Positions 34,643-35,684 of a DNA stretch of 64,000 bases are shown here, piece by piece. The notes below the pieces were generated by a model, which was not told the origin of the DNA, searched no databases, and saw only the letters and a program-made list of their open reading frames with translations. Location of the stretch: contig NZ_JACIEE010000004.1 in the NCBI RefSeq assembly GCF_014196765.1, forward strand, positions 46,435-110,434, given 5' to 3'. Position numbers and translations under genes: made by a program. The DNA is from Mycoplana azooxidifex (GTDB taxonomy: Bacteria; Pseudomonadota; Alphaproteobacteria; Rhizobiales; Rhizobiaceae). The number at the start of each line of letters is the position of its first letter. The stretch's first letter is position 1.

Positions 34643-34927
34643 ATGTCCCGTAGTTGCGAATTGACCGGCAAGGGCGTCCAGTCTGGCAACAATGTCAGCC
34701 ACGCCAACAACAAGACCAAGCGCAAGTTCCTGCCGAACCTGTGCAACGTCACGCTGATCTCCGATAGCCTCGGCCAGCGCTTCCGCCTGCGCGTTTCCGC
34801 AGCAGCGCTCCGCTCGGTCGAGCATCGCGGCGGCCTCGACGCCTTCCTGCTGAAGGCCGACGAGAACGAGCTGTCCATGCGCGCTCGCCTGCTGCGTCGC
34901 CAGATCGCCAAGAAGGCCGCCGCCTGA
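34643..34927 (+). CDS. rpmB: 50S ribosomal protein L28
   Basis: The 94-residue basic protein has the L28 signature [20 protein letters not shown], the [12 protein letters not shown] segment and a helical basic tail. It lacks the zinc-binding cysteine pairs seen in some L28 proteins. AGGTG precedes the ATG. The gene is monocistronic, with a consensus promoter upstream and a hairpin downstream. Confidence 0.96.
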
Positions 34928-34958
34928 TCATCGGGCGCGTCTTTTCGAGACACGCATT

Positions 34959-34984
34959 GGCCTGACCGATCATTCGGGCAGGCC
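34959..34984 (+). terminator. Hairpin after rpmB
   Basis: GGCCTG-A-CCGA pairs with TCGG-G-CAGGCC around a TCAT loop, giving a ten-pair stem with one mismatch, followed by TCTCTG. The T-run is poor, but the location between rpmB and the riboswitch suits a terminator. Confidence 0.6.
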
Positions 34985-35016
34985 TCTCTGCATTGCAGAC
35001 ATCGCTGTAACTCCAA

Positions 35017-35046
35017 CTGGTGGCATCACCCAGGATAAAAAAATGC
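35017..35046 (+). promoter_or_regulatory. preQ1-I riboswitch overlapping the yhhQ start codon
   Basis: Stem P1 is CTGG (35017-35020) with CCAG (35030-35033). The nine-base loop begins with T and ends with C, as in known preQ1-I aptamers. The A-rich tail GATAAAAAA is nine bases long, like that of the B. subtilis aptamer. The loop bases GCAT (35023-35026) can pair with ATGC (35043-35046), closing the H-type pseudoknot over the start codon. AGGA at 35032-35035, the only Shine-Dalgarno, is partly in P1. Ligand binding should therefore block translation initiation. Confidence 0.8.
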
Positions 35047-35684
35047 AGGCGAACCGCATTACCCTCACCTATGTCCTCCTGATGACGCTCGTCGTCGTCG
35101 CCTCCAATATCCTGGTACAGTATCCGCTGCCCGGAACGCTGTTCGGCGTCAGTCTCGGCGACATCCTGACCTTCGGCGCCTTCAGCTATCCCGTCGCCTT
35201 CCTCGTCACCGACCTGACCAACCGCCAGTTCGGGCCGAAGGTCGCGCGCAAGGTGGTGATCGCCGGCTTCGCCGTTGCCGTCCTCTTCTCCTTCGCCGTC
35301 GCCTCGCCGCGGATTGCGATCGCCTCCGGCTCCGCCTTCCTGCTCGGCCAGTTACTCGACATCTCGGTCTTCAACAGGCTGCGCCGCCAGAGCTGGTGGC
35401 AGGCGCCGCTGCTCGGCTCGCTGATCGGCTCGGCGCTGGATACGGTCATCTTCTTCTCGATCGCGTTTTCGCCCGTCTTCTCGGTCTTCGGTCCGAACGA
35501 CGCATTCGCCATCGAGAGCGCCCCCATCCTCGGTCTCCTTGCCGCCGAGGCCCAGCGCTGGATTTCCTGGGCCATCACCGATTTCGGCGTGAAGATGCTG
35601 ATGGGACTGGTGATGCTGCTTCCCTATGGCGCGCTGATGAGCACGCTCAAGCCCATGCCGGGCGTCGAGAAGGCCACCGCCTGA
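35043..35684 (+). CDS. yhhQ: Queuosine precursor transporter (YhhQ/VUT family)
   Basis: The 213-residue polytopic protein has about six transmembrane helices and the COG1738 motifs SNILVQYPLPGT, SYPVAFLVTDLTNRQFG and the central acidic/aromatic segment. Family members import 7-deazaguanine precursors (preQ0/preQ1) for queuosine modification of tRNA. The preQ1-I riboswitch that covers its start codon supports this assignment directly. GluQ, which acts on queuosine-modified tRNA-Asp, is also in the window. Confidence 0.92.
   Translation: MQANRITLTYVLLMTLVVVASNILVQYPLPGTLFGVSLGDILTFGAFSYPVAFLVTDLTNRQFGPKVARKVVIAGFAVAVLFSFAVASPRIAIASGSAFLLGQLLDISVFNRLRRQSWWQAPLLGSLIGSALDTVIFFSIAFSPVFSVFGPNDAFAIESAPILGLLAAEAQRWISWAITDFGVKMLMGLVMLLPYGALMSTLKPMPGVEKATA

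Follow-up and report, generated by a model that had tools for sequence, protein, structure and literature searches.

A candidate preQ1-I-like riboswitch in Rhizobiaceae with the start codon of yhhQ in its pseudoknot

The start codon of yhhQ in Mycoplana azooxidifex very probably forms one strand of the pseudoknot of a preQ1-I-like riboswitch that turns translation OFF. The element occupies 35017-35046 of the window, the whole stretch of 64,000 nucleotides that was analysed, and reads CTGG-TGGCATCAC-CCAG-GATAAAAAA-ATGC, directly on the start of the gene. A preQ1-I-type pseudoknot with the start codon in its second helix (P2), as put forward in the original prediction, is supported among relatives by the covariation of loop base 8 with base +4, the first base of codon 2, and by two compensatory pairs in the first helix (P1). 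The RNA architecture is thus well supported.

If this reading holds, the smallest class of riboswitches includes a form whose aptamer and initiation codon are a single element. What the ligand controls would then be recognition of the codon, not access to the Shine-Dalgarno sequence, and the family would provide a natural, family-wide test of how 30S initiation is blocked. The choice of residue 2 in a protein would be limited by RNA structure, and an evolutionary series would exist between Shine-Dalgarno capture and start-codon capture. Control by preQ1 would also be added to a family element that has no Rfam annotation in the window, and to a host that seems to rely on import for its queuosine precursors.

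The element and its parts

The sequence elements of the original prediction all lie where it had placed them. They are the P1 stem CTGG/CCAG, a nine-base loop that opens with T and closes with C (TGGCATCAC, 35021-35029), a nine-base A-rich tail (GATAAAAAA, 35034-35042), and a GCAT within the loop, whose complementarity to ATGC is confirmed by reading. Loop bases are numbered 6 to 14, as in the type III riboswitch of E. coli.

Table 1. Features of the yhhQ leader and gene, in positions of the window
Feature	Position	Strand	Remark
CUCCAA hexamer upstream of the motif	35011..35016	+	each base kept in 73 to 79 of 81 leaders
P1 5' strand, CUGG	35017..35020	+	read; compensatory changes in loci L244 and L216
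L1, U6 and G7 (E. coli type III numbering)	35021..35022	+	
P2 5' strand, GCAU	35023..35026	+	partner AUGC at 35043-35046
L2, two variable bases	35027..35028	+	CA, AC, CU, AA or UA among relatives
C adjoining the P1 3' strand, site of the preQ1-I specificity cytosine	35029..35029	+	C in 81/81 leaders
P1 3' strand, CCAG	35030..35033	+	
AGGA, likely Shine-Dalgarno, partly within P1	35032..35035	+	read
L3, A-rich tail GAUAAAAAA crossing to P2	35034..35042	+	
P2 3' strand, AUGC	35043..35046	+	start codon and first base of codon 2
yhhQ-type queuosine precursor transporter, 213 aa	35043..35684	+	TIGR00697

The open reading frame scores 95.7 bits against TIGR00697 (cut-off 50.95) and lies downstream of rpmB, the gene for ribosomal protein L28. 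The AGGA ends seven bases ahead of the ATG, a position from which it is likely to be the Shine-Dalgarno sequence.

Folding of a single strand gives results no better than for shuffled sequences, by a method that cannot draw pseudoknots. The minimum free energy fold of 45 nt is a competing hairpin.

Conservation and covariation in the family

Comparison with relatives establishes that the block exists, that it is conserved, that it lies on the start codon, and that compensatory changes occur both in P1 and between base 8 and base +4. By protein similarity 131 relatives were found, and the best 80 of them were kept. The motif was not used in finding them; one of the six peptide patterns that were used covers the N terminus, which introduces a slight bias.

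The 30-base block stands ahead of yhhQ in all 81 leaders (80 relatives and the window) and is nearly invariant. Twenty-six of its 30 columns do not vary at all, two columns of L2 and one of L3 do, and in the last the sole departure is an N in one leader. The upstream bases and codons 2 to 4, unlike the block, drift. Codon 2 begins with C in 81/81 leaders, even though residue 2 is Q, L or P. Two features of the preQ1-I class are also found throughout: the L1 uridine (U6 is U in 81/81), and an A-rich L3, with an A-run fixed in all 81 except for one N. Relatives that carry the block include Rhizobium, Agrobacterium, Shinella, Ensifer and their kin.

A scan of the family with a 29-base pattern, allowing at most 3 mismatches, finds it in 341 of 394 sampled genomes; a reversed control pattern has no match among the same 394. 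Pairing of the initiation codon in P2, regarded beforehand as an oddity, is instead the common form here. The pattern is single-copy in every genome but one (G461), which has copies on two contigs (C30 and C32).

Among the 53 genomes that lack the pattern, one (G164) was read and has no motif, and the other 52 were searched for yhhQ, with 34 positive. Thirty leaders from pattern-less genomes comprise 16 variants with insertions or deletions, in which the loop or tail is longer or shorter, one degenerate motif, and 13 without a motif. By reading, the variants in loop and L3 length retain both helices. Six loci from family members with small genomes of 1.1-1.6 Mb (L245-L248, L250 and L251; genus codes g4 and g106) have lost the motif or keep it in degenerate form. 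Altered queuosine salvage is reported for Bartonella (PMC11570991).

The range of the element can also be followed beyond the family. A search of the order gave a yhhQ match in 116 other genomes, from which 69 leaders were read. Six belong to the family, and five of these bear the motif. The remaining 63, from other families of the order, contain no motif by reading or by covariance model R1 (E up to 1). In 385 genomes of the class, model R1 with strict filters matched only the window's own genome, with 19 candidates scored per genome in the results shown.

The decisive covariation involves base 35023, which is loop base 8, and base +4. It was followed in 163 distinct motif places, drawn from the 80 relatives, other fetched leaders, 30 loci of the family scan, and 40 loci picked from the scan list. 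Of the 40, 39 were chosen for loops other than UGG and one for a change in P1, so that sampling of the 163 places was not random; base +4 was hidden when they were picked. In the regular expression that defines a place, CAT and ATG are fixed, base 7 may be G or T, and base 8 may be G or C.

Loops fall into three types by bases 6 to 8. A UGG loop always stands with AUGC (101/101), and a UGC loop always stands with AUGG (11/11). With a UUC loop, the start is AUGA in 30 places, AUGC in 13, AUGU in 8, and AUGG in none of the 51. The covariation of GCAT with ATGC in the leaders of relatives had been set beforehand as a check, and the outcome is that the pair to base +4 tracks the loop across the 163 places. 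The proposal that P2 lies on the start codon is thereby upheld, with the correction that its fourth pair extends into codon 2.

Fisher tests on the raw counts for base 8 and base +4 are extreme, on counts that ignore kinship. A tree of 159 YhhQ proteins, built by a quick method, requires at least 8 changes of pair type, at least 6 of base 7, and at least 3 of base 8. Among the 101 rows with a UGG loop, at least 16 changes of residue 2 are counted and none of base +4. The 47 rows with a UUC loop require at least 16 changes of base +4. A count of independent pairs gives two starred pairs for base 8 against base +4, with a mean of 1.7 in the expected direction and none against it, and four starred pairs for base 7 against pairing, all four as expected; these numbers are below the 6 needed for p<0.05.

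The three pairs of CAU with AUG show no variation among the compared places, where CAT and ATG were fixed by the search. Starts of the GTG or TTG type, with either matching or non-matching loops, were found in 0/394 family genomes, given a canonical P1, a 9-base loop and at most one mismatch. Since these three pairs are invariant within the family, they rest on the comparison with E. coli. A background for base +4 from mechanical open reading frames was set aside, as its 14 ATG frames were too few and too crude.

P1 has its own compensatory changes, each in a single sequence: G-C becomes A-U in locus L216, and U-A becomes C-G in locus L244. The motif of L244 sits on the start of an in-frame yhhQ reading frame. 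The H-type pseudoknot of P1 and P2, a feature of preQ1-I, is found, with 100% of cells paired in P1 and 84.5% in P2 across 29 distinct sequences. Each helix has one pair with changes on both sides.

Helix statistics were compared with displaced partners and with shuffles. When partners are slid by one to three columns, pairing falls from 92.2% to at most 47.0%. The covariation score at the +3 slide is slightly higher than observed (0.040 on 5 pairs vs 0.036 on 8). None of 500 shuffles reached the observed percentage paired or the observed covariation score, and 11 matched the count of pairs with changes on both sides. For further pair types, 494/500 shuffles reached the observed value (2 observed vs a shuffle mean of 2.6).

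By eye, the CTCCAA at 35011-35016 is not at the same place in leaders with UUC or UGC loops. Its UCC could pair with the GGA of the Shine-Dalgarno region.

Relation to known preQ1-I riboswitches

The original prediction had taken the element for a preQ1-I riboswitch. The structure supports that assignment, and the nearest subtype is now corrected to type III, as found at yhhQ in E. coli. The E. coli leader reads UUGGG-UUCCCUCAC-CCCAA-UGGUUAAUC-AAAAAGG. Its crystal structure shows U11, C10 and C9 paired with A28, G29 and G30 of the Shine-Dalgarno sequence, U7 and C8 in base triples, and a contact of U7 and A27 with preQ1 (PMC10622847). The ligand is held by the specificity cytosine, the L1 uridine and adenines of L3, and reports of type III come almost exclusively from gamma-proteobacteria (PMC10622847).

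The likeness to the E. coli element is considerable. Both lie at yhhQ and have a 9-base loop with a U and a C that face the ligand, and six of the nine loop bases (U6, C9, U11, C12, A13 and C14) are common to E. coli and the window. In both, an H-type pseudoknot is merged with the translation start region, and L3 is A-rich. By analogy with PMC10622847, C35029 would act as the specificity cytosine of preQ1-I.

The two elements also differ. P2 of E. coli joins CCU to the AGG of the Shine-Dalgarno sequence, whereas P2 of the window joins GCAU to the AUGC of the start. Base 7 is U in E. coli and G in the window, P1 has 5 or 6 pairs there and 4 here, and L3 of the window is shorter.

Relatives with a UUC loop have U at base 7. 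Their commonest loop, UUCCAUCAC (27/48 in one leader set), differs from E. coli UUCCCUCAC by one base, C10 to A10. Exactly this substitution lets the base pair with U in AUG instead of G in AGG. If the loops are homologous, this change across clades supports the pairs between CAU and AUG. The rule for UUC loops, by which base +4 is never G, would agree with a C8 left free, as it is in the triple of E. coli. The window's form has G at base 7, and its base 8 is read as lengthening P2 into codon 2 instead.

Several traits define type III, and the element shares some of them. The association with yhhQ is found, the motif being on the start of a yhhQ-type gene. The AC at the specificity base is present in the window; relatives also have CC or UC, so that the base preceding the specificity C is not always A. 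Three other traits fail. The two bases flanking the 5' strand of P1 are UG in the window, not UU, and UU occurs in 51/163 places. The loop of the window, UGGCAUCAC, is not pyrimidine-rich, as are those of UUC relatives such as UUCCAUCAC. P2 holds the start codon, not an AAGG Shine-Dalgarno sequence. For these three reasons, the element is filed as a type-III-like variant of preQ1-I.

Type II riboswitches, such as those of T. tengcongensis and B. subtilis, are another point of comparison. Like the window, they have a C preceding the 3' strand of P1 (with an A before it in the window), an L1 uridine and an A-rich tail. Unlike them, the window has a smaller loop; type II either engages the Shine-Dalgarno sequence only in part or acts on transcription.

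The add riboswitch of V. vulnificus also has an occluded start codon in its OFF state (PMC10907184). There, a separate sequester hairpin hides the ribosome binding site and AUG, whereas here the start codon would itself be a strand of the presumed ligand-binding pseudoknot.

One group of relatives seems to join the two kinds of capture. The ATG of the motif opens a YhhQ-like frame in 158/163 places, and in the other five yhhQ is in another frame. These five (L235, L236, L266, L268 and L194) have the motif AUGG out of the yhhQ frame and make up 5 of the 11 UGC places. From their reading frames, the apparent start of yhhQ lies 13-14 bases downstream, and AUGGA sits at a Shine-Dalgarno-like place. 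The pairing is kept there though the AUG is not the start, and so capture of the start codon and capture of a Shine-Dalgarno-like sequence seem to interconvert within one family.

On balance, the Rhizobiaceae appear to have a fourth preQ1-I architecture in which the start codon is the expression platform, a proposal that is favoured with some reserve. With G7, base 8 would pair with base +4 and constrain residue 2; with U7, base 8 would be free and codon 2 would avoid G. With the pocket unchanged, minor alterations of the loop and of the start site would have carried lineages from either kind of capture to the other.

Database searches say little on the matter. Rfam, at the gathering threshold and at E up to 10, gives no preQ1 (RF00522) match in the window. 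A missing model hit had been named beforehand as evidence against the riboswitch; the absence is true of the window, but is weak evidence, since the validated E. coli type III element is likewise missed by RF00522. One UUC locus (L173) does match RF00522 exactly on the motif, with 19.6 bits (gathering score 39, E 7.2), and the other six of the seven UUC loci searched along with E. coli do not. Covariance model R1 (E up to 1) does not recover the E. coli element. Matches to the Rfam families ST7-OT3_4 and RT-1 are on the other strand and far under threshold, and were taken as chance.

The available parts of PMC10622847, PMC11625349, PMC5372724, PMC3766115, PMC13273304, PMC10907184, PMC11570991 and PMC4448311 do not describe the element. 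In open-licence full texts, which include few subscription journals and were covered in part, no description was found for Rhizobiales, Rhizobiaceae, Sinorhizobium meliloti or Agrobacterium tumefaciens, and an earlier mention is possible in the 2014 type III paper. The same literature contains no riboswitch pseudoknot described in words as sequestering a start codon.

Type III was reportedly defined in that 2014 paper.

Proposed mechanism and alternatives

The proposed switch would work as follows. P1 (CUGG/CCAG) would form a hairpin that holds part of the AGGA. PreQ1 would bind between the two helices and touch U6, C14 and adenines of L3, as it does in known preQ1-I aptamers. On binding, the GCAU of the loop would close the pseudoknot on AUGC, and the 30S subunit would be unable to place the start codon. 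The importer would be shut off once its product pathway is full. The identity of the ligand, its binding and contacts, and repression on binding are suggested by resemblance to known riboswitches and by gene context.

That context can be read from the genome. Matches over cut-off are present for QueF (149.1 bits), Tgt (466.9) and QueA (382.8), and QueC has sub-threshold matches only (best 28.6 vs a cut-off of 150.3). With QueF, Tgt and QueA in the absence of QueC, the host should depend on imported preQ0 for making preQ1, or else take up preQ1 itself. Given such a dependence on import, feedback on the importer makes sense.

The Que genes were also surveyed in 80 relatives, including the genome of the window; some of the genomes are incomplete, and two (G306, with a degenerate motif, and G242, with no assigned loop type) were left out of the counts. 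QueF is over cut-off in 21/35 genomes with a UUC loop, 4/9 with UGC and 19/26 with UGG. Neither QueF nor QueC is over cut-off in 26/70 motif-bearing genomes, some of them incomplete. Of the genomes with yhhQ and no motif, 7/8 have neither. The idea that the UGG loop marks import of preQ0 was dropped, as QueF does not separate the loop types.

The same pseudoknot might answer to another ligand of the pathway, such as preQ0 or queuine, or might have lost ligand binding and act as a fixed damper of translation. This is unlikely, and it draws on two facts: base 7 of the window is G where E. coli has the U7 of the U7-A27-preQ1 contact, and the host must import a precursor, with no QueC over cut-off. 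Retention of U6, the specificity C and the A-run of L3 speaks against it. Sensing of preQ0 in particular fits poorly with the 26 motif-bearing genomes just mentioned, in which preQ0 should not feed the pathway and the motif persists, and with the failure of QueF to separate the loop types clearly.

Two further explanations do without a ligand-binding pseudoknot. In one, a plain hairpin, or a protein site at the start, governs translation and the match of GCAU to AUGC is incidental; the hairpin would be either a lengthened P1, with GGUG/CACC around a GCAU loop, or UCC paired with GGA over the Shine-Dalgarno region. The 45-nt minimum free energy fold does use such a hairpin, and the upstream CUCCAA is conserved in the 81 leaders. 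The GGUG/CACC helix is, however, broken or shortened by CUC loop variants and by UUC or UGC loops, and a hairpin leaves unexplained why base +4 follows base 8, which makes this account quite improbable. In the other, the block is a DNA operator over the promoter or start of yhhQ, kept for a transcription factor. Very high conservation over 30 bp would suit an operator, but the place relative to the ATG is nearly fixed, the compensatory changes obey RNA pairing, and both helices survive, by reading, where the loop or L3 varies in length. A search of 34880-35100 gave no sigma-70-like site, which is weak evidence in the same direction. An operator is therefore scarcely credible, and the preQ1-I-like switch is the reading retained.

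A side observation concerns transcription of yhhQ. In six loci of 221 bp (L201-L205 and L215), a T-run after GCC, resembling the end of a terminator, abuts the motif directly. With no room for a promoter between them, yhhQ may rely in these loci on read-through or on a promoter further up.
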